NCBI GenBank assembly: GCA_002788775.1 | Contig: PFRX01000030.1 | Span: 1 to 44,838, forward strand | Length of the DNA stretch: 44,838 bases | Direction of reading: 5' to 3' | DNA from: Candidatus Peregrinibacteria bacterium CG_4_9_14_0_2_um_filter_53_11 | Lineage (GTDB): Bacteria; Patescibacteriota; Gracilibacteria; UBA1369; UM-FILTER-53-11 | Shown: positions 1,556 to 34,017 of the stretch, piece after piece | Position numbering within the stretch: position 1 is the first letter of the stretch | How the letters are laid out: every line of letters starts with the position of its first letter | Made by a program: the position numbers and the translations under genes | Notes under the pieces: generated by a model | What the model was told of the DNA's origin: nothing | What the model saw: the letters and a program-made list of their open reading frames with translations, nothing else | Databases searched by the model: none

Positions 1556-1636
1556 AACCCCTCCTAATTCAAGAAATATTACGCCAATAGCGCAAGCGTT
1601 TTTAGCGCCGTTTTAAGGTAAAATTACGGGTTGAAG

Positions 1637-4600
1637 ATGTCATTACTCCGTCTCAAAAAACTTACTGTTCTCGGCGTGCTGATCGTCTTTGGATTCGGTA
1701 CCCTCTCCGCGCCCTTTGCTCAGGGCTTCTCGTTCCCCGAAAAATACGATCTGGTAGCCATTCTCGTGGAGCAGGGGGTCTATGCCGACACGGCCGATTA
1801 TGAGGGCTTGGTTGGGCAGGCCGCCGCCCCCCTTCGAAAGACAACGCTCAAAGCGCGTGTCGATCGTTATGCCATCGATCTCCAAACTGCGCTACCCGGA
1901 ACGCGTGCGCTGATTATTCAGGTCGACCGTAACGAGAAGACCGAGAATGTCGCGGCCGTTTTGCAGCGGCTCTACTCGGAAGGGGATCCCGATGAGCCCG
2001 GACGTGTGGCTTACCTCCGCGGTCTGGTCGCCATTGGCGAGGTGCCACTTCCGGTGGTCAACAAGGCGGGAAATCGCTTTATCTCGATGTATCCCTACAC
2101 CGACTTCACCGATCCCTACTACACCTACAACCCCGAGACGGGCGACTTCGAGCCCTCTCAGAAGGCCATAACTCAGCCACAACCGGAGATCTGGCACGGC
2201 GTTATCCGCCCCACCGGCTCCACTCAAGAGGCGGCTGGGAAGGCTGAGCTCGCCTCGTACTTCGACAAAAACCACCTCTACCACACGGGCGATCCTGCCT
2301 ATGCGAACTTCAACAAGCGCGTCTTTTTCCAGGACTACGTTCAGGAAGAAAAGAACCTCAACCCCACGGCCTACGCTCAGTATCAGAAGTTTCTGGAGCA
2401 CCAGGGTGATGTCGCCTACCTCCGCTATACCCGCGAGCTCTTTTCCGACCTGACCGAAGGGGTGGATCAGGAACTCGCACAAGATCAGCAAGAGACGGCC
2501 GACCTTCGCGCGCAGCTCGAGGCCTCGGGTGTGACCTTTGACGACGAGCTGCCTCCAACGCCGGGTGCCCCAATTGCTCCGAATATTGATGATGCCGTTG
2601 ATGGGGCGAAGATCCCCGACATCATCACTAAAATTTCAAAGATGTCCGACAAGCTGATGGCCCGCTTCTACCAGCTCTTTTCCAAATATCCAAACCTCAT
2701 AAATGATTTTTTGAAGTACACCGGGCGCTATGTGACGGCCGATGGAGACAACTACCGCTACAACGTAGACTCGGCGGTTAACCTCATCACCGCCAAAGAC
2801 CAGTTTACGATGAGCTACTTGAAGGGTGTGAACGATATGGTTGAGCGGCAGATCGATGCTCTCGTGAGCCAGGTTCAGAAAGATGTCGCCTTTTCTCGTA
2901 TTCACTTTGAGGTTGTCAGTGCACGACGCAAGACGGCCAATGGCTTTGATACGGTTCGCCCAACGCCCATTCCGGAAAATCCACCGCTGCCAACTCCCCA
3001 AGAAATCGAAGCGCTGAGGCTTTCGGGTCGTCCACTGCCCCAGGCCGATCTACCTCCACGGCGCGCTCCGCCCATCGACTTTATAAACTTCAGCCCGGCG
3101 GTGACGATCGATAATCTCACACTCTTCCCGGCGCGACCCGAGGACGACGAGATGTGGAGCTTCCCGGCCTCACTCAACGGTTATCGCTTGGATCAGCTGA
3201 CGAGCGTTGCCCAGTGTACGCCCTACCGGGGATCACAGGGCGGCGAGCCCTACTCAAAGGCGGTCGAGATCAACCGCGCACTTGATGTGCAGACGGCGAT
3301 GGATTTTGACCGTGGTCCGGATGCGACGACGGGACGCACACCCGACGAGGTCGACTCCAACTACGCCTGTTATGCTCAGATAAAGGGCGGCCGCTGTGAG
3401 GGATACGAGCAGTTTGCGGGCTGTTTCTTTGACGGCACGAATCTCTTTACCGATCCGGTTGAGGGAGCTCAGCTCTGCTTTCCCGATCATGCCACCGACC
3501 CTATTCTCGACCTTGCCGGAACGCGTGAGGTGACAACAACACTTTTCCCTCCCGCCGAGGACTACCGTGCCTGTCTGAACTTCCGCTCGGAGGATCTTTT
3601 GCAGCAGCATCGTATTGCCGCCGACCAGAGGCTTGAGCATGTCGATAACCGTTACGCCTGGAGTCGTGAGGAGAAGCTTCAGCGTATCGACGACCGTCCC
3701 GTCCCTCCCGCCGATCCTGCACCGGAGACGATCTCGATTTTTATCTCGGAGAGTGGCGACCGTTTCAACCTTACCCTTGCCGACCTGCTCCGAGGGCTCG
3801 GCTGGAATCCCCAACAAAATCCCGATGGCTGGAAGGAGGTGCTCTCACGTTTTCTGCTAAGCGGAAACGATCAGCAGACCTTCCGTGTTCCTCTCAACAA
3901 TGCACAGTTTGAGGATATTACTATCCGGCTGAGCCGAGAAGATTTGAAGTCGATTTCGAGTGTGATGTATCACAAAGAGCCGACGATCGAGACGCTCAAC
4001 GCGCAGGTGAAAAATCTTGCAACGCAGGATCTGCCTGTTGATAATCCACGCTTCGTCTCATTTCAGAATCAGGATGGCGAGCCCGAGCGGATCGTCTATC
4101 CCGATCTTTTTAAGGCGGCTTCTATTGATGAGTATATGGAGCAGGTTCGCGCTGTTGAGGCGCAGCTGAGCGCCCAGCCACGAGCCGGTGTAGCCGGAGG
4201 AGCCGCCGCGGTGCAGGGAGGTGGAGTGGATCCGCAAGGCGGCTCGCTCTGCTCTGACTGTCTGACTCAGCTCTTCTCAAATCTTCCCGAGCGCAGTGAG
4301 AATCGTCCGGGCTACGACCTCTATCTTCAGCGTGCCGGCCTGGCAAAGGTGAACGACTCAGTTGCCTGGAAGAATATGGATCTCGACTCAAAGCACGTCT
4401 ACATCTCTCGAGCCTATATCGATGCTCGTCAGAATGCCTACATCGGCGAGTCCCAAAACGGCTACGAACTTCTCTACTTCAACGGCACGGGCGATGCCGG
4501 TCGCTATACCTTCGGTTTTAATGCAAAGGCGACTCAGCTGAATGATGAGCTCTCGGCCGCCGCTCAGACGGATGCACTGTTAGACCAGCCCTACGAAGAT

Positions 4601-7600
4601 AATCCCGCCAGCCCCTTTGACGATCCGGTTCGCGCAGCCGACCGCGCGGTTGTGGAGCAGGGAGGGTACGACCTCTTCACCTGGTCTCCGCCTCCCGTCT
4701 CACCGTGGTGGGAGAGAATGAAGGAGTGGGCGCGAGACCTCAGCACACGGGTAAGTCAGTTCCAGTCCGGCGACTCCGGTGAGGACTTTTACGCCGAACT
4801 CAACAAGCAGAATGAAGACGAAGCCGCGCGCCTGGGGACACAGAGTGATGAACTTCTCCTTGCACCGACACGTGCCGATCAGATCGAGACCTCACGCGTT
4901 GCCGCGCTTGATATTAAAGTGGCTTCGTCGGTTGTTGTCGTCGGGAAAAAACTGACGAGCCGTATCTCTCTGCTCGACGCCGAGGGGCAGCCGGTGACCG
5001 ATGAGTTTATCCGTCTGACCGCGACGATCGCGGGGCAGGGAGCATCAAGTTCTGATGCTCTTCCCACAATTCTTGCAACCGACGAGGACCCGCTGACCGA
5101 TGGGTATCAGCTCACGGTTTTTGGAGGAAGTCTCGATCTTCCTCTCGCCGCCTCTTCTTCAGCCGGTCGCTTTACGCTGACTCTTAAAGTCGAGGATGGC
5201 CCGGCTCAGGCGAGCCAAGAGTTTGTTGTCGTCCAGAATGCACGTCTTCATTTCGACTCTCCCTCGCTCGCACTCGTAGCAGATGGACAGCGTCTTTTGA
5301 ATCTTGAGCTCTCGGCGATTGACGAGGCGGGACGTGTGCTGACTCAGGTTAGTGGAGAGGTGCAGCTCAGCCTCTCGAATCCCGCACTGGGTGCGTTGGG
5401 CTCACCAACTATTCAACTTCGCAACGGTCGCGGTGAGGTTCCCCTCGCCATTGGTACGAAGAAGGGAACTCTTCTTGTGAACGGCACGATCGACTCAGTC
5501 GATCCCGGTGTCTTGCAGCTGTCGCTGCTTCCGGGTACTCCTTCGGAACTTCGTCTCTCAAGCGAGCGTGATGTTCTTGTGGCTTCTCCGGGAAGTGAGC
5601 TTGAGGTCAGTGTAGAACTCCGCGATCGTTACAGTAATACTGTCGATGCCAACTCGGCTGTCGAGATCGGTTTTGAGCTCGCACCCGGCTCTGAAAAGTT
5701 TGCTCAGCTCTCCTCGCCAACCGCACTGCTTACGAATGGACGTGCACGTGTAACTCTCCGCCCCACAGGTGAGACCGGCCCGATAGTCTTAACCGCTCGC
5801 GCCCCCGGTCTGCCTCCATCCACACTCAACCTCCGCTCCGCACAAGAGTTCTCTTCAGCACAGGTCGGACAGATGCAGACCGATGGGCTGGCGGTTGCCC
5901 TGCTTGGCGTTCCGGGTGGACGTGTTACCGAGGCGGACGCCCTTGGCCCGGCCTTCATCATGAGTGGAAAAGTCCAGGCCGCGACCTCTCTGACGACGAG
6001 GCCGCAGCAGTACGAGCGACTCTTTGAAGTTACCGAGCATGGGGGTGTTCGCTTCGACGAAAATGCGGGAGTTGAGCTCAGTTTTGTTCCCGCCAACAAC
6101 ATGAGTTTGTTGATTCACGATACGACACTGGGAGTCGACCTTGCACGTCTCACACTCGTGGCCCGCCGTGATGGACAGTTTGCGATCACTGACGAGCCGG
6201 ACCTCGACAAGCTGAGTGACGGTATCTATCTCCGTGCAACCGAAGCCGGTGCCGGTTACCAGCTTGACCAAAAGAAGGGCGCACTCCGAGTCGCCAAGAA
6301 CGATTCGGAGATTTTCGAGGTTCAGACCAATGGCTTTGTACGGCTCTTTTCTTCCGAGGTCAGTGTTCAGGTGAAGGACTCGGACTATCTCACACTCGAG
6401 GTTCTTGACGGAGGGCAGGCCATTGCAGAGGTGGTTTTTGTTCAGCGTTTTGGTCAGGATGTCAGGCTCGAGCCGACCGTTGAGGAGCCCGGCTCAGATC
6501 TGCCCGGAGTTTTTGTTCATCCCTACGCACTTCCTCAGACGATCAACGTCGAGCAGAGTTTTTCGGGCAACACGACGGCCGCTCCCCAGAGCCTCACCTT
6601 CTACGACACAACTCAGGCGGTGACCGGCCCGGGCATGCCCGGCTTCGGCTTCCTCTCGTTTGAAGACAGTCTGACCACGCCGGGTGTGGGCTTCACGAGA
6701 GATAACAAGTTCGCCCTTCTCTTTGCTGCCGGCGAGACCTTCGGAGAGGCGAATCGTCCCTACAACTCAGACTTGGGGATCGTCCTGGGCGACCCAACCG
6801 TTCGTGTTAAAAACACTCCCGAGGCCGGCCTTTCGTTTACACCTGATACGGGCAAGCTCGTCTACGCGGGCAGTGCCGAGGTGAGCGAGCTCCTCAACTT
6901 CGACTACAATACCGACGGCTATGAAGACATTTTGATAGTCCAGAACAACGGCACAATCCGTCTGATTCAGAACAACGGTGGTTACGACCAGCTCGTCGAT
7001 CAAGGTCCGCTCTTCGTCTTGAAAAACGGCGTGCAGGCCCTGACTAAAGTGGATATTAATCGTGACGGTCAGATGGATCTGGTCGTCGCCGGTATTGAAA
7101 GTTGTCGTGCTACGGATACCTGCATCGACATCTATCAAAATAATCACGGCAGTTTTGAGCGTCACAACCTCTCATTCAATCAGACGAATAAGATCGTCGA
7201 GTTGGAGGCGCATGATCTCAATGGTGATGGCTTCCCCGAGCTGGTTCTTGCCGATACTGCCGGCAATATAGAGATCTTGTACAACCGTAACGGCACTTTC
7301 GACCAGGCACCTCAGCGTATCGGAAACGTTGGGCTTCAGATCGATCCGCGCAAAAATCTCGTCTCGGGTGTCCTCCTCCGTTACTCGGGAATGCCTCAGA
7401 AAGATCGGGCCGACCCGCGCTCTGTTCAGAAGTTTTCTCAGCTCTCACTTCGCGAGCGTGATGTGATTGCCCAGGCGGAGGGATTCGGTGGATTTACACC
7501 GGGTGCCGGCGTGGAGTTTTCGCGTGATGATACCTACACCTCGATACAGCGCGACTACATTTATGCCAATGTTGAGGGGAGTGCCTTCCGTGAGTCGGCC

Positions 7601-10600
7601 AAGTTCGCTGAGGATCTGAATGGTGGTGTTGTAGAGACCGGTGACAGAGTCCGCTATCGACTTCGACTTGCGAACGGCTCAGGCTCTAACTTGAGCGGCG
7701 TTTCTGTCAGTGATGTGATCGCCACTCAGTTTGAGTTGGACAAGGCGACTCTGAAATGCGAAGGCTGTGGAGCGGGGGAGTTAACAACCGAGTCACTTAG
7801 TGGAGATCCACTCCGTCCGCTCCTCATAACTGGTCTTACACTTCCCGCACGGAGTTCGCGGACAATTAGTTATGAAGTAACCTACCGTGGTGCGACTGAA
7901 GAGGCCGAGGGAGTCACCTTCGCCTTTAGTAAAAAATTTACTGATCGTGATGCGCCCCTACAGCGTCACCTGGCAGCTGATGCCTACCCTGACATTGTAG
8001 TTAACAAAGAGGGGAATCCAACGGGTAGAGTTCGTTACTACTACACAACAGCACGCAGTGCAGACGGCAGACTCAGCTGGGCAACCGCCCTCTCTTCGCC
8101 CGCCGCCGACTCCGCGGATCCGGTCGCCGCGGCGATAGATCCCGGTCTTCTTGCCGACGCACAAGCAGCTCTCGACGATCCCTCTAAACTTCCCGCCTCA
8201 CTAGTTGAAAGACGCAATGCACTGACCTCGGATGATAGCGATGGTGATGGACTCCAGGACTCGATTGACGATCTTAACGGTCCGCTTGAACGTTCTTTAA
8301 CTCCCGCTGAGCAGCTCAATGCTGCGGTTGATGAGCTTGGTGCCGTCCTCGATGACGTTGCCGGTGCGACCCAGGCGGTAGTAGACAAGCTGACGTGTGA
8401 TGCGGGCTGTATCGCTCTTCCCCTTAACTACGCTTTCTTTGCTCCAGGTTTTGCCAGTCTCTTCGGTGTTCCCTCAGGTGCTTTTGACATCGGCCTGCCC
8501 GTCTTCGGCTGGGGTGTTCCGAGCCTCATCCCGGTCTGGCCACCGAGTGGGCCGGCTCAGGCCGCAGCGGGCGGACGCTTCTACATCTCTCCCACAATTA
8601 CGGGTGGCGTGGGCTTCTCGGTCTGTATGGGTCCTTACGGCTCGCCCAAAAACTGCTACTCATTTGGTATCAACCCACTCGACCTCCTTCCCGGAAATAT
8701 CTGTGATCAGTTCAACTCCGTAACGACCGGTGCACTTGCACGAGCAAATAGCATTATTGCAGATGCGAACGGCGGTCTCACACTCTCGATGAGTCAGGAT
8801 GGCTTTGGCGCGCAGACGAGCCGCGAAGCCGAGAGCACCGGACTGGGGAACTACTCGCTGGGCAGTTATAACGCCGCGCCCGCGCGGAATAAAAATGTAA
8901 AAGTGCCCGGCTTCCCCAGTGTCCTCACCGACTGGTGGGATGCTCAGCAGAGTGAGATTCTTAAGGCTTTCGACCTCCCCGATTTGTATATTATCTACCC
9001 CAGCCTCGACTCGCTCACCGGCACGATTAAGCCCACCCACAGCTTTGACTTTAAGGGCGACGTCCTCACGGAAGTTTTGACGACTATAAACAGCATGCCT
9101 CTTGTGGATATTCAGACGCAGGAGGTGCTCTTCAAGATTCCCGTGATGACGCGTAAGGAGATTGAAAAAGTTAGACTTGATGCTCTTCAGTGGTACGAGG
9201 ATGAGAAGCTCGAGCTCGAAAGATGGAAGGGGCTCGTGGGCTGTTTTGCACCGATTGGCGATGGAAATTTTGCCAACCTCGATACCTGCCGCTTCGTTGA
9301 TGCCGAGATGAACAAGATGTTCGCCTCGGTGATTGAGAATGTGAAGAGGCTTGATGAGTGGATTCTCTTTCCCAAAAAAGTTCTACAGTTTAGGACGATC
9401 GAGAGCTTTTATCTGGGGCAGATTGTTGACTACCTGGATACGGTGATCGAGTTCACCGGGGGCTGGATCAAACGGAACACGGCACGAATTAAACAGTGGC
9501 GTCGAGCCGTCCGCCAGATGAAGAGTGCGATTGATAACTGGAAGGCGCTCTTTAACTTGATGGTCGACTACAACGAGTCATGCGACCAGTGTAAGACCGA
9601 GCGTTACGGCTTGGAGGAGCTCCTCCTGAAGATCTTTGTGGCGATTCCATCGCCGCCGGTTATCCCGCTTCCAAAACTCCCCGATATCATAATCGACGTC
9701 TCAAAAATTCAGGCCGGTCTGACTATTGAGTGGCCCGATGTTCGTTTCAAACCGGAGCCGTTTGTGGTTCCAAAACTTCCTCGTTTTGGTCTGAATGTCG
9801 ATCTGACGATTCCGCAATTTAAGATTATCGCGCCGGCAATCCCACTCATTCCAAAGCCACCCGAGCTGCCCATTCTTCCCCAGCTCCCACCACTCAACCT
9901 TCCCGAGCTGGTCGACATTCCGCCGCCGCCAACCCTGCCGAAACTTCCCGATCCGCTCTCGGCGCTGATCTCGATTCTGAAGAAGGTGACCAAGATCTAC
10001 TGCATTATCAAACTCGGGTTTGTGCCGACTGACGAGATCATGCTCAAGTCCCGCATCGAGCAGATCACCGCCCGTGGACTCTCCCCCGTTCTGCCGGTCG
10101 ACCTCCTTTTCTCAATTGAGGGGCCAACGATCTCGACCACCTACGTCGATCAGCTTGTCATCACCGCCTTCACGAACTTAAACGTAGATCTCTCGTACAT
10201 TCAGGTTGCGGTGGAGAAGATCGCGGAGGAGGCCAATAAGTTTTCAACCGATCTGGTGAAGGGCGTTAATGATGCAACAAAGGCACAGGCTCAGCAGATT
10301 CAGAACATCACACGGCCGCGGCTTAACGTTCCCGGACTTGGTGGCGCCGCGGGAGCCTTCGACTACACGCCGCTCGAGAACGAGACCTCACCCGTCGCCT
10401 CGCTGGATCAACTCTCGCCCGAAGTCGCGCAGCTCGCCGCTCAACTCCCCGCAGTTTTTGGAGCCGGTGTTGATGGCGCTGATGAGGCCAACGATCTTCT
10501 CACACAGCTGATTGACCGTTTCTGGGATGATCGTGCCGACTATCTCGCAGAGCTCGAAAAGCTTCCCCGTGAGATCACACTTGAGGCGACTCCACTAACC

Positions 10601-13600
10601 TTTACTCCTTCGAACCATCCTCTCGACTCGTCCGACGCGCTCGAGCTTTCCGACCTGATCGCCGAGAGTGAGCTGATCACTCCCTTCCAAAAAGATCTCA
10701 AACAGTACCGCGACGCACTTGTTGGATATGCCGATAATCTAGGCACTCAGCGAGCAGGCTTGGGTGGCGAGGAGCTCAACTCTCTCAGCTCACTGATCGC
10801 CGATTACGCCTCGCTCCCCGAGAGTCCGGTCCGTCGCGAGCTCGCCTCGGTCGGCCTTCCCCAAGGGGGAGCGGCCTCCCCCGAGCTCCAGAAAGTTGGA
10901 GTCTTCGATCCCGACGAAATTAGCTGGCTCGATGCGGTTTTTGAACCTTCCGACAGCAGCTTGAATCCGACTTCCTCCTACGTCCCACTTCCAAACCTCG
11001 GCTCAGATGTAGATGCGGTCGTTGGACGCGCGGCACTCTCGCCCCCTCAGGGCTCCTCACTCATCGCTCAACTTCCCGGAGCCGCCGATTTAAACACTCC
11101 CGGCCAGGGAGGCCCCACCGGCACGGGCTCAACTCAGCACGTCGGGCTCTTCTATGTCGACGGTGAGGGGACGGGACGACGTCTTGTGAACTACACCTTT
11201 GAGGCCGGCTCCAAGACCACGATCGCCTCATTCGATCTTGATAATGACGGCGACGACGATAAGATTTATTCCTACGGCTCGAACGTCTTCCTCAAGAAAA
11301 ATTTTGATAACGTTGAGGAGGAGACGCGTCCAACGTTCCGTCCCGCCGATTTGGAGTTCTGGACGATTTACGAACTCCTCCCCGCCATTTCGGCACCCAC
11401 AAACTTCAGCCTCTCAGACGAGCAGGCTCGCTCGGTCTCCTTCAGTGCGGCTCCTCCCGTTCTGGGTGCAGAGAAGCTCGCCGGCTACGAACTTATTGCT
11501 CGTAACTCACCCGCCGCTTACGAGTCGCCGTCTCTGACTCCGGCCCTCCGCGCACACTTCATCCCGGCCTTCGCGCCCTCTAATGTCACAGCCGAAACCG
11601 GCCTCTTTGCAACTTTCGATGGCCTTGATGGAGAGGTTAAGGTTAATGGTCGCACTCCCCAAACAACGAGACTCAGCGTCGGTGACTACATCGAGACGGG
11701 CGAGGACAGCTCAGTCGTGATTCGCGGTAGTGAGGGAACGATCTTCAGGGTAAGCCCCGGCACCGGCTTCGTTCTGACCCAGGGAACCAGCCTGCAGCTG
11801 ACCGCCGGCTTTCTGGAGGTTCAGATCCCGCGTGAGGGCAGCTCGTTCATTCCGGCAGGCACGGGAGTTCAGGCGGGAGCGGGTCGCATTCGTCTTCGAT
11901 TCTTTGATGGAAGTGATATGGAGGCGCGCCCCGGTTCCGGATTTATGGTCCCGTTTATGGAGCCGGTGCTCGCCACAGTTAAGCGGGTTGCAGGAGGTAC
12001 GGAGTTCACCGGGGCGCGCCGTGAGTATCTCTCATCCCGAGACGGAGACATCCGGCTCAAGAGTGGAGACCGTGTCCATCCTCTGGAAGTTGTTACGCTG
12101 ACATGGGATAAGGGTGGTCCCAATGAACGCCGGCTGACCTTATCTCAAGCTATTGTTTTGAAGGCGCCCGATGGTGCCGCCGATTTCTTTTTCCATGTCG
12201 AAAGCGGCCAGGTTGAGGTTGTGCGTAGTGGTGAGCAAGCTGTCCAGCCGGCCGTCGCCGGAATGCTCTTGGCCTTTGGAGATGAGCTCAAGGTAAAAGA
12301 AGGAACCGTAACGCTCAACTACCTCAAAGGTGGGGAGACCGTCCTTCGCGGTGGTGAGCGCTTCATCCTCAATAAACTTGAGGGTAAGGCCGGCCTCACC
12401 GCCTCACTCTCAGTAGATCCGGGTTTCTACTACGCTCGCCTGCAGGTATTTGATGAAGAGGGAAGGCGCTCGGTTCCCTCCGAACCGGTCCTCTTTGCTC
12501 CACAAGTTTGTGGCGACACAACGGCACCTTTTGCGAGTGCGGGCCGAACGGAATTTACTGTCGCTGTAGGAAAGGCGCTGACACTCGACGCCTCCCGCTC
12601 ATTCGACGGTCAGGGCTTGGTCTCTTCCTACCGACTCGACCTCGACACCACCTCGGACTCAAATAACGACGGTAAGTCTGACAACGATAATGACATTGAA
12701 CAGCCCGGAACTCAGCCGCGTTTTATTGTTGGGCCTTACGAAAATGTGGGGGACTACTCCCTACGCCTGATCGTCCTCGACGAGGCTCTCAATCAAGGTT
12801 ACCAAGATCTCACCGTTCATGTGGTTACACCGAAAATTGTCCTGGAAAAGCAGCCACTCGGAAGTAGTGTTATAACCGGCTACGTCGAACCGGCAGATGC
12901 CAACGTGCCGATTAGTATTGCGCGCCGTCGCCAGGGCACCGGTTGGGAACTTCTCACTACTCCTTCCGCTGATGAAGGCGGCCAGTACTACACCGACGCC
13001 GCCGGCCGCTTCCGTATTGATGATGCTGATATACGCCATCGTCTGGCCATTCGTGATGCACAAGGTTCGACCGTTGCCGAAGTGAATGCTGCAACCGGAA
13101 GAATACAGGTTCTCGATGGACGGTATGAGCTGCGCCTCCTTGAGGCTAAGCGCCCCAGTCTTCCAACGCGTATTGGCCTCTTCCTCAAGTCCAACCCAAC
13201 GCTCGAAAATCCCCTCAGCTCGTCCTACATAATTCCCGATATCAATACCGACACCACTCTCGACTCGGCAGAGGTGAGCTATACCGAAAAAACAGTCGGG
13301 AACCTCTTCGGTGTCCATATTAAGCCCCTTGAGTCGGCCACGACTCTCGGCCTCAGCTTTAAGGTTCTCGGTGGTGCCGACCCCAATCTTCCGGGTGCCA
13401 CAACGGCCTCGAAGGGCGGGAAACAGCTCGCGGTCATTGATGTGAACGGAGATATTTTCAGTGAGGATGCTCAAGTTTCTTTCCGGCTCAAGCCGGCCGG
13501 CTCAATCGACGCCCCGGTCGTCTACGAGATGCTTTACGGACAGACGGTCGTCGCAGAGATTTACGTGGCTGTCCATGGGGGCGGGGGAGGCTCGATCGCC

Positions 13601-14734
13601 CCAATTCACCTCGTTGAGTCTCTTAGCGCCGCTCCTCGACCCCGTCCGCGCGCCACTTCATCGGCGAGCTCACAGCCCTTCGTGGATGTCTTGCCTAATG
13701 ATCCGTTCGCCCCAATCGCGCAAAAACTGTTTGATCGCGGAATCATTGCCGGTTATGCAACGGGCCTCGACGGCCAAGTTAAGTACGATCCAGCACGCCG
13801 TATAAATCGCGCCGAATTTACGCAGATAACTCTCAAGATGCTCTGTATCATACCTCGTGACGAGGCCAAAGTGCTGCCCTCGCCTTTCTACGACGTTCTC
13901 GACCCCAAGGTCTGGTTCTACCCCGTTTTGAAGGAGGGAAATATCCGCGGCTTCATCCGCGGCTACCTCGGTGAGAAGCAGGTCAACGCCGCGGGAGTTG
14001 AGACAACGCCCTTTAAACCTAACGCGACAATCACACGCGCCGAGGCGGTAACCGTCGTTCTTGCGGCCCTTCACGAGCAGAATATTATCGACCTGGATCG
14101 TGCCGACTTCAGGCCCCGTGAAGGTGGGCAGTGGTACGATGCCTACATCAGGGCGGCACAAAATCTTCAGCCGCTCTTAGTGGACCCGGACGATGCCGTC
14201 GCTCGCTCATTCCTCATAACGCCCGCCGAGGCCGCCCGTCCCGGGGAGCTGATTACCCGCAGGCAGTTTGCAGAGATGGCCGATCGTGTTCTCCTCGTCT
14301 ACGACTGCTTTAATCCCGATCGTGACGCCGATGGCATCAACGATGCCTGGGAGCTCGCGCAGGGCTTCGAGCCCGCGGCTCTCGACCCGGCTGGCGATCT
14401 CGACGGTGATACCTGTAGTAACAAACGTGAGTTCGAGCTTGGAACCGATCCGCAAAAAGCTGATACGGACGGGGGTGGGGTTGGAGATTGTGAAGAGATC
14501 GCACGTGGAACAAATCCTCTCGGTAATCCCTATGATGATAGAGATCAGCCGCCCACCGATCTCGTTAAGAGTGAGGAGGGAATTTATCTGATTGCACCAT
14601 CCTGTAATATCTGCCCCTGCCCTGCAACGATAGAGTCTGCCGCCGACCTTGTCGTTGGGGATCAGATCTTCGCCGCAATAACGGGAAAGAAAGGGCTCCC
14701 GATCTATGCGAAATCCAACGAAGAAGAGTTCTAG
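1637..14734 (+). CDS. Giant secreted multidomain SLH surface protein (4365 aa)
   Basis: An uninterrupted 13-kb gene. I chose ATG 1637 over TTG 1631 because it gives a compact signal peptide (Lys/Arg start, hydrophobic core, cleavage near residue 28-30). Regions in order: an N-terminal part (about 30-200) with a TDFTDPYY stretch and a following EIWHGVIRP that faintly recall gingipain-type C25 peptidases, without an obvious catalytic dyad; Ig-like invasin-type domains (about 1090-1400); FG-GAP/VCBS-like DxNxDG repeats (1755-1885); a DUF11-like domain (1975-2085); DSDGDGLQD calcium-type repeat (near 2200); a Cys-containing region (2330-2340); helical then Pro-rich segments (2500-2775); FecR-like beta domains (3315-3590); a PKD-like domain (3630-3730); three SLH repeats (about 4015-4070, 4080-4155, 4165-4220); and DxDxDG thrombospondin-3-like loops (4230-4300). 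SLH domains bind secondary wall polymers, so this is probably a wall-anchored filament or adhesin. TAAAAT at 1619-1624 may be its -10. Confidence 0.9.
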   Translation: MSLLRLKKLTVLGVLIVFGFGTLSAPFAQGFSFPEKYDLVAILVEQGVYADTADYEGLVGQAAAPLRKTTLKARVDRYAIDLQTALPGTRALIIQVDRNEKTENVAAVLQRLYSEGDPDEPGRVAYLRGLVAIGEVPLPVVNKAGNRFISMYPYTDFTDPYYTYNPETGDFEPSQKAITQPQPEIWHGVIRPTGSTQEAAGKAELASYFDKNHLYHTGDPAYANFNKRVFFQDYVQEEKNLNPTAYAQYQKFLEHQGDVAYLRYTRELFSDLTEGVDQELAQDQQETADLRAQLEASGVTFDDELPPTPGAPIAPNIDDAVDGAKIPDIITKISKMSDKLMARFYQLFSKYPNLINDFLKYTGRYVTADGDNYRYNVDSAVNLITAKDQFTMSYLKGVNDMVERQIDALVSQVQKDVAFSRIHFEVVSARRKTANGFDTVRPTPIPENPPLPTPQEIEALRLSGRPLPQADLPPRRAPPIDFINFSPAVTIDNLTLFPARPEDDEMWSFPASLNGYRLDQLTSVAQCTPYRGSQGGEPYSKAVEINRALDVQTAMDFDRGPDATTGRTPDEVDSNYACYAQIKGGRCEGYEQFAGCFFDGTNLFTDPVEGAQLCFPDHATDPILDLAGTREVTTTLFPPAEDYRACLNFRSEDLLQQHRIAADQRLEHVDNRYAWSREEKLQRIDDRPVPPADPAPETISIFISESGDRFNLTLADLLRGLGWNPQQNPDGWKEVLSRFLLSGNDQQTFRVPLNNAQFEDITIRLSREDLKSISSVMYHKEPTIETLNAQVKNLATQDLPVDNPRFVSFQNQDGEPERIVYPDLFKAASIDEYMEQVRAVEAQLSAQPRAGVAGGAAAVQGGGVDPQGGSLCSDCLTQLFSNLPERSENRPGYDLYLQRAGLAKVNDSVAWKNMDLDSKHVYISRAYIDARQNAYIGESQNGYELLYFNGTGDAGRYTFGFNAKATQLNDELSAAAQTDALLDQPYEDNPASPFDDPVRAADRAVVEQGGYDLFTWSPPPVSPWWERMKEWARDLSTRVSQFQSGDSGEDFYAELNKQNEDEAARLGTQSDELLLAPTRADQIETSRVAALDIKVASSVVVVGKKLTSRISLLDAEGQPVTDEFIRLTATIAGQGASSSDALPTILATDEDPLTDGYQLTVFGGSLDLPLAASSSAGRFTLTLKVEDGPAQASQEFVVVQNARLHFDSPSLALVADGQRLLNLELSAIDEAGRVLTQVSGEVQLSLSNPALGALGSPTIQLRNGRGEVPLAIGTKKGTLLVNGTIDSVDPGVLQLSLLPGTPSELRLSSERDVLVASPGSELEVSVELRDRYSNTVDANSAVEIGFELAPGSEKFAQLSSPTALLTNGRARVTLRPTGETGPIVLTARAPGLPPSTLNLRSAQEFSSAQVGQMQTDGLAVALLGVPGGRVTEADALGPAFIMSGKVQAATSLTTRPQQYERLFEVTEHGGVRFDENAGVELSFVPANNMSLLIHDTTLGVDLARLTLVARRDGQFAITDEPDLDKLSDGIYLRATEAGAGYQLDQKKGALRVAKNDSEIFEVQTNGFVRLFSSEVSVQVKDSDYLTLEVLDGGQAIAEVVFVQRFGQDVRLEPTVEEPGSDLPGVFVHPYALPQTINVEQSFSGNTTAAPQSLTFYDTTQAVTGPGMPGFGFLSFEDSLTTPGVGFTRDNKFALLFAAGETFGEANRPYNSDLGIVLGDPTVRVKNTPEAGLSFTPDTGKLVYAGSAEVSELLNFDYNTDGYEDILIVQNNGTIRLIQNNGGYDQLVDQGPLFVLKNGVQALTKVDINRDGQMDLVVAGIESCRATDTCIDIYQNNHGSFERHNLSFNQTNKIVELEAHDLNGDGFPELVLADTAGNIEILYNRNGTFDQAPQRIGNVGLQIDPRKNLVSGVLLRYSGMPQKDRADPRSVQKFSQLSLRERDVIAQAEGFGGFTPGAGVEFSRDDTYTSIQRDYIYANVEGSAFRESAKFAEDLNGGVVETGDRVRYRLRLANGSGSNLSGVSVSDVIATQFELDKATLKCEGCGAGELTTESLSGDPLRPLLITGLTLPARSSRTISYEVTYRGATEEAEGVTFAFSKKFTDRDAPLQRHLAADAYPDIVVNKEGNPTGRVRYYYTTARSADGRLSWATALSSPAADSADPVAAAIDPGLLADAQAALDDPSKLPASLVERRNALTSDDSDGDGLQDSIDDLNGPLERSLTPAEQLNAAVDELGAVLDDVAGATQAVVDKLTCDAGCIALPLNYAFFAPGFASLFGVPSGAFDIGLPVFGWGVPSLIPVWPPSGPAQAAAGGRFYISPTITGGVGFSVCMGPYGSPKNCYSFGINPLDLLPGNICDQFNSVTTGALARANSIIADANGGLTLSMSQDGFGAQTSREAESTGLGNYSLGSYNAAPARNKNVKVPGFPSVLTDWWDAQQSEILKAFDLPDLYIIYPSLDSLTGTIKPTHSFDFKGDVLTEVLTTINSMPLVDIQTQEVLFKIPVMTRKEIEKVRLDALQWYEDEKLELERWKGLVGCFAPIGDGNFANLDTCRFVDAEMNKMFASVIENVKRLDEWILFPKKVLQFRTIESFYLGQIVDYLDTVIEFTGGWIKRNTARIKQWRRAVRQMKSAIDNWKALFNLMVDYNESCDQCKTERYGLEELLLKIFVAIPSPPVIPLPKLPDIIIDVSKIQAGLTIEWPDVRFKPEPFVVPKLPRFGLNVDLTIPQFKIIAPAIPLIPKPPELPILPQLPPLNLPELVDIPPPPTLPKLPDPLSALISILKKVTKIYCIIKLGFVPTDEIMLKSRIEQITARGLSPVLPVDLLFSIEGPTISTTYVDQLVITAFTNLNVDLSYIQVAVEKIAEEANKFSTDLVKGVNDATKAQAQQIQNITRPRLNVPGLGGAAGAFDYTPLENETSPVASLDQLSPEVAQLAAQLPAVFGAGVDGADEANDLLTQLIDRFWDDRADYLAELEKLPREITLEATPLTFTPSNHPLDSSDALELSDLIAESELITPFQKDLKQYRDALVGYADNLGTQRAGLGGEELNSLSSLIADYASLPESPVRRELASVGLPQGGAASPELQKVGVFDPDEISWLDAVFEPSDSSLNPTSSYVPLPNLGSDVDAVVGRAALSPPQGSSLIAQLPGAADLNTPGQGGPTGTGSTQHVGLFYVDGEGTGRRLVNYTFEAGSKTTIASFDLDNDGDDDKIYSYGSNVFLKKNFDNVEEETRPTFRPADLEFWTIYELLPAISAPTNFSLSDEQARSVSFSAAPPVLGAEKLAGYELIARNSPAAYESPSLTPALRAHFIPAFAPSNVTAETGLFATFDGLDGEVKVNGRTPQTTRLSVGDYIETGEDSSVVIRGSEGTIFRVSPGTGFVLTQGTSLQLTAGFLEVQIPREGSSFIPAGTGVQAGAGRIRLRFFDGSDMEARPGSGFMVPFMEPVLATVKRVAGGTEFTGARREYLSSRDGDIRLKSGDRVHPLEVVTLTWDKGGPNERRLTLSQAIVLKAPDGAADFFFHVESGQVEVVRSGEQAVQPAVAGMLLAFGDELKVKEGTVTLNYLKGGETVLRGGERFILNKLEGKAGLTASLSVDPGFYYARLQVFDEEGRRSVPSEPVLFAPQVCGDTTAPFASAGRTEFTVAVGKALTLDASRSFDGQGLVSSYRLDLDTTSDSNNDGKSDNDNDIEQPGTQPRFIVGPYENVGDYSLRLIVLDEALNQGYQDLTVHVVTPKIVLEKQPLGSSVITGYVEPADANVPISIARRRQGTGWELLTTPSADEGGQYYTDAAGRFRIDDADIRHRLAIRDAQGSTVAEVNAATGRIQVLDGRYELRLLEAKRPSLPTRIGLFLKSNPTLENPLSSSYIIPDINTDTTLDSAEVSYTEKTVGNLFGVHIKPLESATTLGLSFKVLGGADPNLPGATTASKGGKQLAVIDVNGDIFSEDAQVSFRLKPAGSIDAPVVYEMLYGQTVVAEIYVAVHGGGGGSIAPIHLVESLSAAPRPRPRATSSASSQPFVDVLPNDPFAPIAQKLFDRGIIAGYATGLDGQVKYDPARRINRAEFTQITLKMLCIIPRDEAKVLPSPFYDVLDPKVWFYPVLKEGNIRGFIRGYLGEKQVNAAGVETTPFKPNATITRAEAVTVVLAALHEQNIIDLDRADFRPREGGQWYDAYIRAAQNLQPLLVDPDDAVARSFLITPAEAARPGELITRRQFAEMADRVLLVYDCFNPDRDADGINDAWELAQGFEPAALDPAGDLDGDTCSNKREFELGTDPQKADTDGGGVGDCEEIARGTNPLGNPYDDRDQPPTDLVKSEEGIYLIAPSCNICPCPATIESAADLVVGDQIFAAITGKKGLPIYAKSNEEEF

Positions 14735-14779: not shown

Positions 14780-15424
14780 ATGCGATCAAAACGCACCATG
14801 AAAGTTCTGAACGCCTCGCTGCTCGTCGCCTCGCTCCTCCTCCTAACCTTCGAGGCACGCCTTCTTCTGACGCGTGCGCAGGGAGGCGACCTGCCCGGCT
14901 CGGCACCTGCAGCCGAGGAAGCCGCAGCGCCCGTCGCAGGTGGAGCTGCCGCCCAGGAAGATTTACAAGAAGAGCAGCTTCTCTGTCGCCAGCGTTTGGC
15001 TCCCTTTATGGAAAAACGACGGCTCGACTTTGGTGTCTTTATCAACGATCACTTCCGCTCCGCTCTTCCCACTTCCGAACTTATCCCGATAGCGATCGAG
15101 CGACTTCGTGAGTATCGCGATGACGTTCGTGACGAGCTTTTGCTCTTCTCGGTTCAGGGTGGGCGGCTCGCCGCTGCGGCCGCTGCCGAGAACGGTCCCT
15201 GCCAGGAGCTTGTCGACCAAGACTTTGACGTTATGAAAGAGCTTCTTCGTCAGCATATTCTGCAAAACGCCTTCGCAAAAAAATCCACGCGCCTGCTGGA
15301 TAAGTACAAAGAGATTAACGACCAACTCGCCGATCTGAACCTCGATCTCGCCCAGATGTACGGAAACTTTGGGAGCTTATCTCAACGCCTGCCCTGCTAC
15401 GCAACTCAGTGTACAACCAAGTAA
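14780..15424 (+). CDS. Secreted or anchored Cys-containing protein (214 aa), surface cluster
   Basis: Starts at ATG 14780, 45 nt after the giant SLH gene; a TATATC box lies 8 nt upstream and no Shine-Dalgarno is visible. Residues about 8-33 form a signal peptide or anchor, followed by an Ala/Glu-rich linker (35-55) and a helical domain. Cysteines occur near the linker (LLCRQRL), in the middle (GPCQEL), and as a pair at the extreme C-terminus, C206 and C211, three residues from the end. The terminal cysteine arrangement recurs in the next secreted genes. No known family is recognised. The order and spacing suggest it works with the giant protein and the next three products on the cell surface; that is an inference. 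Confidence 0.8.
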   Translation: MRSKRTMKVLNASLLVASLLLLTFEARLLLTRAQGGDLPGSAPAAEEAAAPVAGGAAAQEDLQEEQLLCRQRLAPFMEKRRLDFGVFINDHFRSALPTSELIPIAIERLREYRDDVRDELLLFSVQGGRLAAAAAAENGPCQELVDQDFDVMKELLRQHILQNAFAKKSTRLLDKYKEINDQLADLNLDLAQMYGNFGSLSQRLPCYATQCTTK

Positions 15425-15432
15425 CTTTTCTT

Positions 15433-16197
15433 ATGCCCCTCCTTCGCAACACTCTTATCTTCTTTCTCTCGCTCTCTGCGGTTTTGCTGACACAGCATCT
15501 CACGCTTCCTGCACAGGCCGAAGAGTCGGCATCACCGCGCACCTATGATGAGCGTCTGTCCGTCGGAGATCTGACCGAACAGTATCACGAGGCGATAAAT
15601 GATCTCTTTAACGACAAGATCCGTGAGCTCGTAGCCCTGGGGACGACCGGCCGCGCCGAAGATCTTGAGTCTCTGCTCACCCGCATCGAACCTCCCGCAC
15701 TCAGAATGGAGAACGGCCTTCCCACAAAACGTGCCCCCTGCGACTCGGGTAATCTCTCAACCTACTGCCTCTCGCTGGATGGCACTAACGAGTTCTTCAT
15801 CTTCCGCGAGGCTCTCATTCGTGTTCAGGAGCGACTTCAAACTCAGGCACGCACACAAGTTCAGTCGCTCGAGGAGGCGCAGCAGGCTCAAAATGCCGAG
15901 GCCGGTAACTCCACGAACAACGCCTTCTCAACCGATGTTCAGCAGCAGCAGCGAGCAGTCATCGGCGTTGGAGCGGAACTCAACAAGATTCAAGAGGAGC
16001 TCTCAATCGCACGCACAGCCCTCGACCAAGGCCTCGCTGCCTACAACGAACTCCAGCTCGCCCTGCCCATGCACATGAAGTACAAACAGATCATTGGTAC
16101 GCTCGAAGAGTACCGCGGAAAACTGAGCTCGATTCGTAGGCAGGTTGAGTGGTACCCGGCCACCTTTATAGATGTAACCACCTCGAAGTGCACATGA
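15433..16197 (+). CDS. Secreted helical protein with CxxxxxxxxCLS motif (254 aa), surface cluster
   Basis: I place the start at ATG 15433, 8 nt after the previous stop, because it gives a clean signal peptide ending in AQA before EES; the GTG at 15409 would overlap the preceding gene. The mature protein is helical with a coiled-coil-prone Gln/Glu-rich stretch (about 135-200). C103 and C112 are separated by eight residues and followed by L-S, the same spacing and YCLS ending seen at C282-C291 in the gene at 18116. The last cysteine is C253, one residue before the end. The stop overlaps the next start as ATGA. No family recognised; probably a structural partner in the surface cluster. Confidence 0.8.
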   Translation: MPLLRNTLIFFLSLSAVLLTQHLTLPAQAEESASPRTYDERLSVGDLTEQYHEAINDLFNDKIRELVALGTTGRAEDLESLLTRIEPPALRMENGLPTKRAPCDSGNLSTYCLSLDGTNEFFIFREALIRVQERLQTQARTQVQSLEEAQQAQNAEAGNSTNNAFSTDVQQQQRAVIGVGAELNKIQEELSIARTALDQGLAAYNELQLALPMHMKYKQIIGTLEEYRGKLSSIRRQVEWYPATFIDVTTSKCT

Positions 16198-17951
16198 GGA
16201 AGAACTCCAGAACTTATAGTAGAGGAGCCCTGGTACTCGTGCTCGGCCTCCTGATGCCATTCGTGGCTCTCGCTGCAACGAGTTATACCAGCGACAGCTC
16301 GGTCGCGTTCGGCGTTTTGGGGACGACCGGGGATGGGGCTCACTTCGACCTGAGCTCGGGCAACTTCTTCACCGTCGATGACAACTACGGGCAGGATCTG
16401 TATGACCTCATCTATCAGAAGGTCCGTCACGAGGGCTCCGACCTTGCCGTCACGCGCACCCTCTCGAGCCGCTCATTTGAGGGTTTGACTAAAGAGGAGA
16501 TCGAGCTCCTCGTTCCCGGCTCCAATATTGGTACCTTTCTCACTCAAGATAAGCTCGGAGCGGGGCTCACGCCGCAGCAAGTTCAAGCGCGTCAGGCTGC
16601 ACTTGTTACCACCCTCTCCGACGAAAAAGAACTTGCCGATCTCGAGGCTGTGGCCACACTTGAGGTCCGGTCGACCGAGATATTTTCGGATGGAGACGAG
16701 AGTAACTCGGGTTTCGATCTGATCACCGATCTGACTATCATCGAGGGGCTTTTATTCGGCGAGACACAAGGTCTTTCGGGAACACCCGGTCCCGCTGATA
16801 ATGCCGGTGGAAACCAAGTCTCACTGAATACCCCCGCTGAAGATGGAGCAAGACCCGATCGTCTCGTGGCCGTTCAGCCCGACCCGGCAAATCCTTTCGG
16901 ACAGAGTCAGCGTCCCCTCGCACAGGGCTCAGGAGCGGCAGCCGGAACGAGGCCCGGTTCTCAAGGCTCCGCACCTCTCCCCGAACTCGTCTCCGATGGT
17001 CTGCTCTGTCCGGTCGATCAAGATTTCAACTCCGCTGTTGAGAGTGTACGCAGGCAGGAAGTTGTAGCACAGAACGGTGCGGGCGGCTCCCCCAGAGCTC
17101 AGGATGATGGCGGTGCGGTTGCCGGCTCAGCCGGTTCCGGTGGAGCGCGGCCTACAAACGAGGGATCGACCTCGACCGTTGAACAGGGACTCTCGCCCCA
17201 GCGCATCGAACTCAGTCCGGCTCAGGCGGGCAGCTGGAAGCGGCCACTTCCATGTAATGAGTTTTTCTGCCTGCGAATAGAGGCAAAGTACAAGACGGAA
17301 ACCTCCTATACAGCGACGGAAAATAGTGTCGTATCGCACGTTCAGCACATCAATGACTCATTTAAGAAAACTCTCGATCGCGACCTTGTTCCCAATAAAG
17401 TCACGGGAAATCTCCTTGAAGGACCCAAGTGTAAAAAAGATATTGCGGGCGCCGAGTGGCTGACCTTCAATCTCATCACTATTCCCGCGCCGATTCTCAC
17501 TCCTCCCAATGACGACGTGGTAACCAAGGGCGATATAATCAGTAACATGATCGACTTCTACGAGAAGTACGAGCCCTTCGGAATAGGTACTCAGCGTGGC
17601 CGCTGTGAAAACGGAGAGATCGGCGGGGCCTGTCTTTCCGAGGAGCCGGCAGCTGCTAAACCGCAACAACTCGATACGGCTAAGCAAGCTCTGGAGCAGG
17701 TGGCTGAAGGTACCACACTAGAGCAGATCAACCGTAGGATCACCGATGAGGTAGAGGCCAAGCGAACACAGGCCGAGCAACTTCTCTCTCAGTCACGTCT
17801 CGACGCTGACGCTCGCAATCAGGCCACTCAGTTTAATGTTTTGATGGTTGAGCTCGACACGATGAATGCCTTCTTCGAGAGCTTCCGCGAACTCTTCGAG
17901 TCTATTCAGACGCCTTGTAACGTCCTAGAAAATAAACCGGTTTGTAGCTGA
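16194..17951 (+). CDS. Secreted protein with low-complexity centre (585 aa), surface cluster
   Basis: ATG 16194 overlaps the preceding TGA (ATGA), a translationally coupled arrangement; upstream GTG 16149 would add 15 residues of non-signal sequence. The N-terminus has an Arg/Lys-rich start, a hydrophobic core and an ALA-A cleavage site near residue 28. A mixed region (30-200) is followed by a Gly/Ser/Ala/Pro-rich disordered section (about 210-340), then a beta-type domain beginning with C354-x4-C359-L (PCNEFFCL), and a helical, coiled-coil-like C-terminus (about 490-570). It ends with C575 and C584, the latter being the next-to-last residue. No family is recognised. It belongs with its neighbours by co-direction, coupling, export signals and cysteine pattern. 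Confidence 0.8.
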   Translation: MRKNSRTYSRGALVLVLGLLMPFVALAATSYTSDSSVAFGVLGTTGDGAHFDLSSGNFFTVDDNYGQDLYDLIYQKVRHEGSDLAVTRTLSSRSFEGLTKEEIELLVPGSNIGTFLTQDKLGAGLTPQQVQARQAALVTTLSDEKELADLEAVATLEVRSTEIFSDGDESNSGFDLITDLTIIEGLLFGETQGLSGTPGPADNAGGNQVSLNTPAEDGARPDRLVAVQPDPANPFGQSQRPLAQGSGAAAGTRPGSQGSAPLPELVSDGLLCPVDQDFNSAVESVRRQEVVAQNGAGGSPRAQDDGGAVAGSAGSGGARPTNEGSTSTVEQGLSPQRIELSPAQAGSWKRPLPCNEFFCLRIEAKYKTETSYTATENSVVSHVQHINDSFKKTLDRDLVPNKVTGNLLEGPKCKKDIAGAEWLTFNLITIPAPILTPPNDDVVTKGDIISNMIDFYEKYEPFGIGTQRGRCENGEIGGACLSEEPAAAKPQQLDTAKQALEQVAEGTTLEQINRRITDEVEAKRTQAEQLLSQSRLDADARNQATQFNVLMVELDTMNAFFESFRELFESIQTPCNVLENKPVCS

Positions 17952-17990
17952 TCTTTTCACCATTTTTTTTGAATAAAAAATATTTTTTTC

Positions 17991-18121
17991 TTAAGCTCAC
18001 TTCGACTCGCAACCGGCAAAGCCGGATTGCTCGTCTCGTTGCGCGCGGCTGCTTTGTAAGCTCCGGCCTCGGGAAACCCGAAGGCCTGCGCGCTCGCACC
18101 GTGTGCTCGCGGATCGTGAGA
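17991..18121 (+). repeat. Dispersed palindromic element, copy A (long form)
   Basis: This stretch shares long near-identical blocks with 41971-42112 and, in reverse orientation, with 33930-34002. Two internal hairpins define it: CCGGC-AAA-GCCGG, and GGCCTCGGG-AAA-CCCGAAGGCC with one bulged base. It ends with a GCTCGCACCGTGTGCTCGCGG block. In this copy the element lies between an AT-rich run (17957-17990) and the secreted-protein gene starting at 18116, so its last bases overlap the start region of that gene. I see no flanking direct repeat here, unlike the other two copies. Confidence 0.85.
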
Positions 18122-19333
18122 TTGATTCTTCACTCGTGCCGTGCACTTGCTGTCCTGCTGGTGCTTGGGGTCTTTGGGGTGGGTTTTGCCTCTCAGCCTA
18201 TCCCTTCGGCTTATGCTCAGGAGATTGACAACGTTCAAGTTTTTGGGGAGTCTTCGCCCGCACTTGAGGAGAACAAAGACCGGCAGCTCTTCGCGAGCTG
18301 CCTTGCCGGCTGGCGCGACTTCCTCTCTGCCTCCACGCCTCAGACCGACGTCAGCGACTACTTCCGTGACTTCTTCCTCTGGCCCTCACATTACGCCGAC
18401 GTTGCCGCCATTCAGAACCAGCTCAACAAGTCGCGCTATGCCGTTATGGCTGCCTTCTTCCGATGTGACCTCGAACGGCTCAAGGTCGTCACTGAGGCCT
18501 ACTATCGCCTTGAGGCCGAACTCTACTTCGTCCGTCACTACGTCCAAACTGACGGAGACAACCTTCACGTCCTCACCGAAAATGCCGCGGAACGCCAGAA
18601 GTTTCAAAAAGAGATGATCGACTACTTCATTGTTCGCAAAGAGAGCCCGGATCCCGAAAAAGACCGAGCCCTCTTTAGCGGCTACTTTGATCTTTTCGCC
18701 GCCAAATACGGGGCTAAGGCACGAACCTATGGCAGCTTCGGCAACGATCCCGCCTACTCTCAGCTTGTGGAAAAGTTTAACGACCTGCTCGATACGCTGA
18801 AGTCATTTAGTGAGCCGTATGAGCAGCTTAAGGCTCTTGGAAATGAGGCGATCGTTGAGCCGGCACAGGCCATCGGCCGGGCCGCCGCCGCCGCCTACGA
18901 CAGTCCGGCAGGCGCCCTGATCGATCTTGGAAAGGCGATCGCACAAAGATTTGACGCCTGTGTAGAGACCGATGACAACCGCTACTGTCTTTCAGACATC
19001 GGCTCAAGCGCAGATCGTGCCGATGAGGATCCCTTCTCATTTTTAGGGGCGCCGCGAACGTTTACCCAGGTGATGATCTCTGTAAGGAAGAAGAGTGTTC
19101 AGCGCACCGATGACGTGAGCAAAGCCGACATGCTCAAACGTTACGAGCTTCTTTACGGTCAGCTTGGGGGAGGAGGCACCCGCGCCACTCTCGATCGTCT
19201 CGATACACTCAACGCAATTCTGGGGGATGGAGCTCCGGCGAAGCCGGGGAGCGCCGCTATCAAGGGGAGTCTCAAGCCCCTGCAGGATATCGCAACGTGC
19301 GCAGATAATATTGTGGATAAGCAGTGTAAGTAG
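18116..19333 (+). CDS. Secreted helical protein (405 aa), last gene of surface cluster
   Basis: The frame is open from TTG 17969, but codons 17991-18115 are the dispersed palindromic element. I place the start at GTG 18116 (TTG 18122 is an alternative), which gives a normal signal peptide: Arg near the start, a Leu/Val core, and YAQ-E cleavage near residue 34. GTG 18101 is also possible. The mature protein is mostly helical. C282-x8-C291-L-S matches C103-x8-C112-L-S in the gene at 15433, and C395 and C404 lie at the extreme C-terminus, as in the other cluster members. No known family. The element may have replaced the original upstream region of the gene. Function is inferred only as part of a surface assembly. 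Confidence 0.78.
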   Translation: MRLILHSCRALAVLLVLGVFGVGFASQPIPSAYAQEIDNVQVFGESSPALEENKDRQLFASCLAGWRDFLSASTPQTDVSDYFRDFFLWPSHYADVAAIQNQLNKSRYAVMAAFFRCDLERLKVVTEAYYRLEAELYFVRHYVQTDGDNLHVLTENAAERQKFQKEMIDYFIVRKESPDPEKDRALFSGYFDLFAAKYGAKARTYGSFGNDPAYSQLVEKFNDLLDTLKSFSEPYEQLKALGNEAIVEPAQAIGRAAAAAYDSPAGALIDLGKAIAQRFDACVETDDNRYCLSDIGSSADRADEDPFSFLGAPRTFTQVMISVRKKSVQRTDDVSKADMLKRYELLYGQLGGGGTRATLDRLDTLNAILGDGAPAKPGSAAIKGSLKPLQDIATCADNIVDKQCK

Positions 19334-33914: not shown

Positions 33915-34017
33915 AAAAAGGCCCCCGCGAGCGCACGGCGCGAGCGCGAAGCGGAGTGAGCAATCCGGCTTTGCCGGTTGCGAACGGAAGCGGAGCTTAT
34001 AAAAAAAGGCCCCCGCG
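33915..34017 (-). repeat. Dispersed palindromic element, copy B (short form), bracketed by a direct repeat of a terminator arm
   Basis: The element proper is 33930-34002 and matches copies A and C in reverse orientation, including CCGGC-TTT-GCCGG and the GAGCGCACGG end. It is bracketed by perfect 15-bp direct repeats, AAAAAGGCCCCCGCG, at 33915-33929 and 34003-34017. The right-hand copy is the left arm of the terminator at 34004-34035. This looks like an insertion that duplicated its target, or an element that carries a terminator arm with it. Confidence 0.8.

Follow-up and report, generated by a model that had tools for sequence, protein, structure and literature searches.

Covarying cysteines predict a disulfide-stapled surface complex encoded beside a giant SLH protein in Peregrinibacteria

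What might four exported proteins of no recognised family build together, when their genes stand directly behind that of a giant SLH protein in a bacterium with a genome of only 1.2 Mb (99% complete)? The stretch of DNA analysed here, called the window, comprises 44,838 nucleotides of a Candidatus Peregrinibacteria genome. On its forward strand, the ORF of a giant exported protein of about 4367 aa (1631..14734) lies 5' of gene A (14798..15424; 208 aa, helical), which is followed by gene B (15433..16197; 254 aa), gene C (16194..17951; 585 aa, overlapping B by 4 bp) and gene D (18116..19333; about 405 aa, with a GTG start and a helical N-terminal domain). The products of A to D are secreted proteins, each with a hydrophobic, signal-like segment at its N-terminus. 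The gaps are short from the giant gene to A and on through A-B-C-D, and the spacing makes a single transcript for A-D plausible. Read from the ATG at 14780, gene A encodes 214 aa with C206/C211 at its tail; read from the ATG at 14798, as here, it encodes 208 aa with C200/C205. A sequence-only reading had proposed that the four proteins are disulfide-linked or mutually assembled subunits. Its four exported ORFs without a recognised family were confirmed, together with all the cysteines that it had named: C103-x8-C112-LS and C253 of 254 in B, C354-x4-C359-L and C575/C584 in C, and C282-x8-C291-LS and C395/C404 in D.

Searches of Pfam, NCBIfam, PHROGs and PADLOC found no family above curated cut-offs for A-D, the only signals being sub-threshold coiled-coil noise, and PDB sequence profiles of A-D also gave noise only. 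A-D would therefore belong to no family tested, and no paper describing giant-A-B-C-D was found in our searches of an open library. When signal peptides were removed, hhalign gave 84% for A against B, with a score of 40 as against 19-23 for reversed controls, and the two are probable remote homologues. The profile similarity of A and C was weak under the same conditions, and the remaining pairs were at control level. Of the features that the four had been thought to share, kinship thus stands as probable for A and B; one family of four probably does not, as the similarity among A, C and D is largely gone in hhalign without the signal peptides and A-B is what is left. The single-chain model of C folds poorly (pLDDT 55.5) and was for this reason left out of the fold search. 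That of D reached a pLDDT of 71, mostly above 85 at residues 60-200, and its best matches (Foldseek E 1.2; VIA-align Z 7.6) were within the chance range for helical bundles.

Conserved gene order is one line of evidence that the proteins belong together. Among 59 relatives searched with single sequences, A was detected in 48, B in 49, C in 53 and D in 44, and a profile search found C in 80/89 genomes of the window's order and in 175/288 of the class. The order A-B-C-D was kept in 41/41 fetched loci, so that the synteny on which the sequence-only reading depended does hold. D was recognised by profile in 39 of these 41; one of the other two is a contig end, and in the second the ORF that follows is probably D in a diverged form. 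An ORF of 3000-5000 aa lies directly 5' of A wherever the contig extends, with the exception of a relocated giant gene in one genome (G020), and a collinear homologue of the giant adjoins A upstream in nearly every locus. The exceptions to giant-A-B-C-D among the 41 loci are contig ends, this one relocated giant gene and one C-D fusion. In the latter (G016, L111:13284-16490), C and D run together as a single open frame (about 1070 aa, with a stretch of N in it), which, if real, would mean that two of the predicted partners have fused naturally.

Further orders of the class that use code 11 show the same five-gene arrangement. TGA is a sense codon in some relatives within the class, which agrees with the use of code 25 described for Gracilibacteria/Absconditabacteria (PMC11452946), and the class was inferred from this agreement. 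In these code-25 lineages C and D are adjacent and the giant gene is elsewhere in the genome; their C-D pair (L163-L173) is commonly flanked by genes that look, by eye, ClpB-like and methionine aminopeptidase-like. B was not found outside the class among 286 sampled genomes of the phylum, C had no homologue in a phage collection and B had none in a scan of viral contigs.

Cysteine is the most conserved residue of the four proteins, as a disulfide-based assembly had led one to expect: 13/21 cysteines of mature A-D are shared by 85% or more of the orthologues, the runner-up being tyrosine (7/36), and no other residue type exceeds 20%. Conservation across the order covers the tail cysteines, C103/C112/C253 of B, C272/C354/C359/C413 of C and C2332/C2342 of the giant protein. 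C63 and C135 of A are invariant, and C272 and C359 of C, like C103, C112 and C253 of B, are present in all, or nearly all, alignable sequences. Shuffling the mature sequences 20,000 times never put the last cysteine of all four proteins among their final four residues and never yielded as many C-x8-C spacings as the five observed. The C-x8-C-LS motif with its YCLS ending, which B and D have in common and which had been taken as a meaningful signature, fared differently. In D, C282 and C291 occur in 6/38 and 5/38 orthologues, nearly all from the window's own family, and the spacing of the C103/C112 pair of B varies among relatives; the identical motif is therefore a lineage coincidence, and we rejected it as a sign of homology. 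A third C-x8-C-LS, C471/C480 of C, which the sequence-only reading did not mention, is found in the window only.

The cysteines of the tails covary between proteins, and four pairings were predicted from this, all encoded on the forward strand (the letter before a residue number names the protein hereafter). Cys200 of A (15395..15397) would be joined to Cys584 of C (17943..17945), Cys575 of C (17916..17918) to Cys395 of D (19298..19300), Cys205 of A (15410..15412) to Cys404 of D (19325..19327) and, as a weaker pair, Cys253 of B (16189..16191) to Cys413 of C (17430..17432). A200-C584 was concordant in 66/66 genomes (33 both, 0 single, 33 neither), C575-D395 in 70/70 (46 both, 0 single, 24 neither) and A205-D404 in 63/63 (60 both, 0 single, 3 neither), against roughly 20-40 mismatches for non-partner combinations; the rules for scoring tails were set after seeing the data, and the alignment columns showed the same pattern. 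The pattern was first seen in a discovery set of 41 loci, and 38 further genomes were then added. In genomes outside the discovery set, the three pairs were concordant in 26/26, 32/32 and 24/24, respectively. When all variable cysteines were ranked all against all, exactly four cross-protein pairs reached phi = 1.0. The other pairs at this value were the intrachain D62-D117, C378-C381 and giant 2651-2654, which are chemically sensible, and the giant's 2358 paired with 2651/2654, three cysteines that a single genome has lost together.

Might the tail cysteines simply form ordinary intrachain disulfides (A200-A205, C575-C584, D395-D404) in secreted proteins that are merely co-transcribed? The residues concerned are only 4-8 apart in the tails of A, C and D in the window, and in code-25 lineages, where C lacks a tail cysteine, the tail of D still has C-x9-C, both of which would suit such an arrangement. 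It is nevertheless improbable, since 32 genomes have A205 but lack A200, 22 have D404 but lack D395 and 31 have only one of C575/C584, whereas the cross-protein pairs gave 0 singletons in 63-70 genomes. Moreover, the parity is consistent: wherever a tail cysteine stands alone in its chain, the predicted partner is present in a different one. The proposal of linked subunits is thus supported for A, C and D, whose C-terminal cysteines covary pairwise; the conservation of predicted interchain cysteines as matched pairs between subunits is one mark of a disulfide-linked heteromeric surface complex.

Common descent of a linked operon might also leave such a pattern without any physical meaning, all the more as the genes travel as one cassette and the cysteine states cluster by family. 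Dependence was therefore assessed on a tree built with FastTree from the concatenated proteins after removal of tails and cysteines. Pagel tests supported dependence for A200-C584 (LR 49.3, p 5e-10), C575-D395 (LR 47.9, p 1e-9) and A205-D404 (LR 20.1, p 5e-4), and found none for off-target cross-protein pairs (LR 3.8-5.6, p at least 0.23). An association of A205 with A200 (p 9e-4) was set aside as an artefact of the scoring rule. Simulated independent evolution on the tree reached the observed match in 0/3000 runs for each of the three tail pairs. Joint gains of both partners occurred in G209 and, with the position shifted in each protein, in G281; A205/D404 were lost together twice independently (G305 and family f13, where A, C and D are without any of the six tail cysteines), and C575/D395 were lost several times, subclades of family f15 included. 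Against shared ancestry as the sole cause, then, stand these co-gains and co-losses inside family f15 (G209, G281, G305, G271), the simulations that never matched and the independent variation of pairs on one and the same tree (A200-C584 versus C575-D395, p at least 0.27). We regard such a cause as extremely improbable.

The weaker pair, B253-C413, was found with both cysteines in 68 genomes, a single one in 0 and neither in 1 (G213). Two genomes, G213 and G309, have lost B253, which is otherwise universal in the order; the sole loss of C413 is in G213 as well, the C protein of G309 being truncated. This pairing would accordingly rest on one co-loss within the order and on co-absences elsewhere. 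A link of B253 to a cysteine of the giant protein was considered and rejected, as the alignable giant cysteines are retained where B253 is lost (the core in G213, the C-terminus in G309).

Of the pairs inside one chain, D62-D117 (67 both, 0 single, 4 neither), C378-C381 (73 both, 0 single, 1 neither) and D91-D209 (64 both, 1 single, 6 neither) show the pattern expected of intrachain disulfides, and A63-A135 and B103-B112 are probably of the same kind. C378/C381 and D91/D209 have been lost in the window's own proteins: at residues 378-382 of C, relatives have DNCIxCH, which is CxxCH-like, and the window has SVVSH, a change from CxxC to SxxS. The CxxC of these relatives would be a disulfide or, less likely, a heme-type motif. 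Three invariant cysteines of C (C272, C354, C359), an odd number, fall outside the predicted pairs, and a homodimer or a link to the giant protein is possible.

The same CxxCH-like sequence could be held to favour a metal cluster with ligands shared between subunits in place of disulfides, and a shared metal site would likewise give covariation between proteins. However, the cysteines appear and vanish strictly in twos, one per protein, and the three pairs vary independently, whereas sites with four ligands would be expected to alter as whole sets. In addition, the proteins are exported and the genome has oxidase genes. A metal cluster is thus a very improbable explanation. The covarying pairs argue strongly for physical disulfides. 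The search for a thiol oxidase that the sequence-only reading had suggested was successful: the genome itself encodes a VKOR (G000:C30:2884-3264) and a DsbA-like Thioredoxin_4 protein (G000:C21:63326-63814), both on other contigs.

As judged from sequence data, A-D very probably form a disulfide-stapled surface complex with a ring of A, C and D and with B attached to C. The proteins would be exported via Sec, oxidised outside the membrane by the VKOR/DsbA-type enzymes and assembled as one hetero-oligomer with covalently stapled subunits. Three interchain disulfides (A200-C584, C575-D395, A205-D404) would link A, C and D into a ring at their C-terminal tails, and C would be the hub, with the last-but-one residue of B, C253, tied to C413. 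Each chain would have its own intrachain disulfides in addition (D62-D117 and, in relatives, D91-D209 and C378-C381).

Outside the window's order some pairings appear to change, and the wiring would be only partly the same. In four loci of other orders (L154, L158, L161, L162) the tail cysteine pair of D, including D395, is kept and C575 is absent; in two others (L159, L167) the tail cysteines of D are present and those of A absent. L156-L158 and L160-L162 have neither B253 nor C413, and L159 and L167 have the two together; the exception is L168, which has B253 without C413. Two code-25 genomes (G193, G216) have B-like proteins without B253, and their C proteins are without C413. Gene C of L156, L158, L161, L162 and L168 contains an inserted CG..GEECDDG..AGDGCS..C segment, which may resemble myxobacterial disulfide repeats.

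What would such a unit be attached to? The giant protein has Pfam matches to FG-GAP_3 (9e-11) and SLH (4e-5), the latter (PF00395) with 23.9 bits against a cut-off of 20.8 at aa 4016-4063; its features are FG-GAP repeats, invasin-like/DUF11 domains, one SLH and TSP3-like Ca-binding segments. Its N-terminus is signal-like by inspection, and it thus has both the export signal and the SLH domain of an SLH-anchored surface protein. A core (aa 2130-2760) with a proline-rich PKLPxIxLP tail is present in 18/18 genomes of the class tested, code-25 lineages included, and matched no Pfam family and no PDB chain. Cysteines 2256, 2260, 2332, 2342, 2358, 2651 and 2654, all in this core, occur in 43/43 homologues, and a C-terminal CxxCxC is invariant or nearly so; C2332-x9-C2342, numbered here from the TTG start, is the pair previously numbered 2330/2340. 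A suspected gingipain-like N-terminus was not supported by the PDB profile search, in which the N-terminus and the core gave noise only.

Gene linkage and co-occurrence suggest, with moderate confidence, that the giant protein is the partner of the A-D complex. The stapled unit would most likely be its base, collar or cap at the cell surface. A-D could also be stapled and serve as a platform on which the giant protein is assembled or exported, instead of being a structural part of the fibre; their strict linkage to it in code-11 orders and their want of an adhesive domain would suit this role. On the other hand, they show no similarity to any secretion component, and we consider a platform rather unlikely; the persistence of C-D and the giant gene as unlinked loci in code-25 lineages is compatible with either role.

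In the chlamydial outer membrane complex, the cysteine-rich proteins OmcA, OmcB and MOMP are cross-linked by disulfides. As proposed for A-D, different exported surface proteins are there joined by interchain disulfides. Unlike the proteins of that complex, to which they are unrelated in sequence, A-D are helix-rich, otherwise cysteine-poor and co-encoded, and they show, in a candidate phylum, fixed one-to-one pairings of single tail cysteines and linkage to a giant SLH protein; with no Pfam match above cut-off, homology of A-D to OmcA, OmcB or MOMP was not found. Canonical S-layer proteins usually bear SLH in more than one copy and do without a stapled accessory complex. The giant protein shares SLH with them in one match above the Pfam cut-off, and A-D are without it.

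In the same broad lineage as the window, large cysteine-rich extracellular proteins, S-layer genes and one disulfide-formation protein are described for Peribacteria in the available part of one report (PMC4736985), and giant surface proteins for Vampirococcus in that of another (PMC8080830). The giant exported proteins of both have FG-GAP/DUF11-type domains similar to those of the window's giant protein and are thought, according to these parts, to mediate attachment (PMC4736985, PMC8080830). The same parts concern individual large proteins and mention neither a four-protein cassette nor a pairing of subunits (PMC4736985, PMC8080830). By analogy with these giant proteins, the assembly may, tentatively, serve attachment to a host cell. 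It is likewise conceivable, as a speculative extension, that this class of Patescibacteria (Peregrinibacteria, Gracilibacteria, Absconditabacteria) has an undescribed extracellular machine, in which the disulfide ring of A-D would be the base of a giant fibre that holds the host, with a covalent wiring readable from genomes and rewired pair by pair in evolution. Molecular knowledge of how these uncultured and presumably host-dependent bacteria build their surface is almost nil. Anonymous conserved proteins here gain a testable architecture, in which four touching chains and their contact residues are named, and the deduction of disulfide partners between different proteins by covariation alone is unusually clean, with 0 exceptions in 63-70 genomes.

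Two further observations concern the locus itself. A dispersed repeat (17983-18123) lies between C and D and reaches into the GTG start of D, with further copies at 42034-42112 (95% identity), at 33958-34007 and on at least 3 other contigs. An upstream TTG (17969) is in frame with D and reads through the repeat, and the repeat may have reshaped where D starts or its signal peptide. On the other side of the locus, 5' of the giant gene, lies an ORF of 477 aa (122-1555) that has no match in Pfam or NCBIfam.
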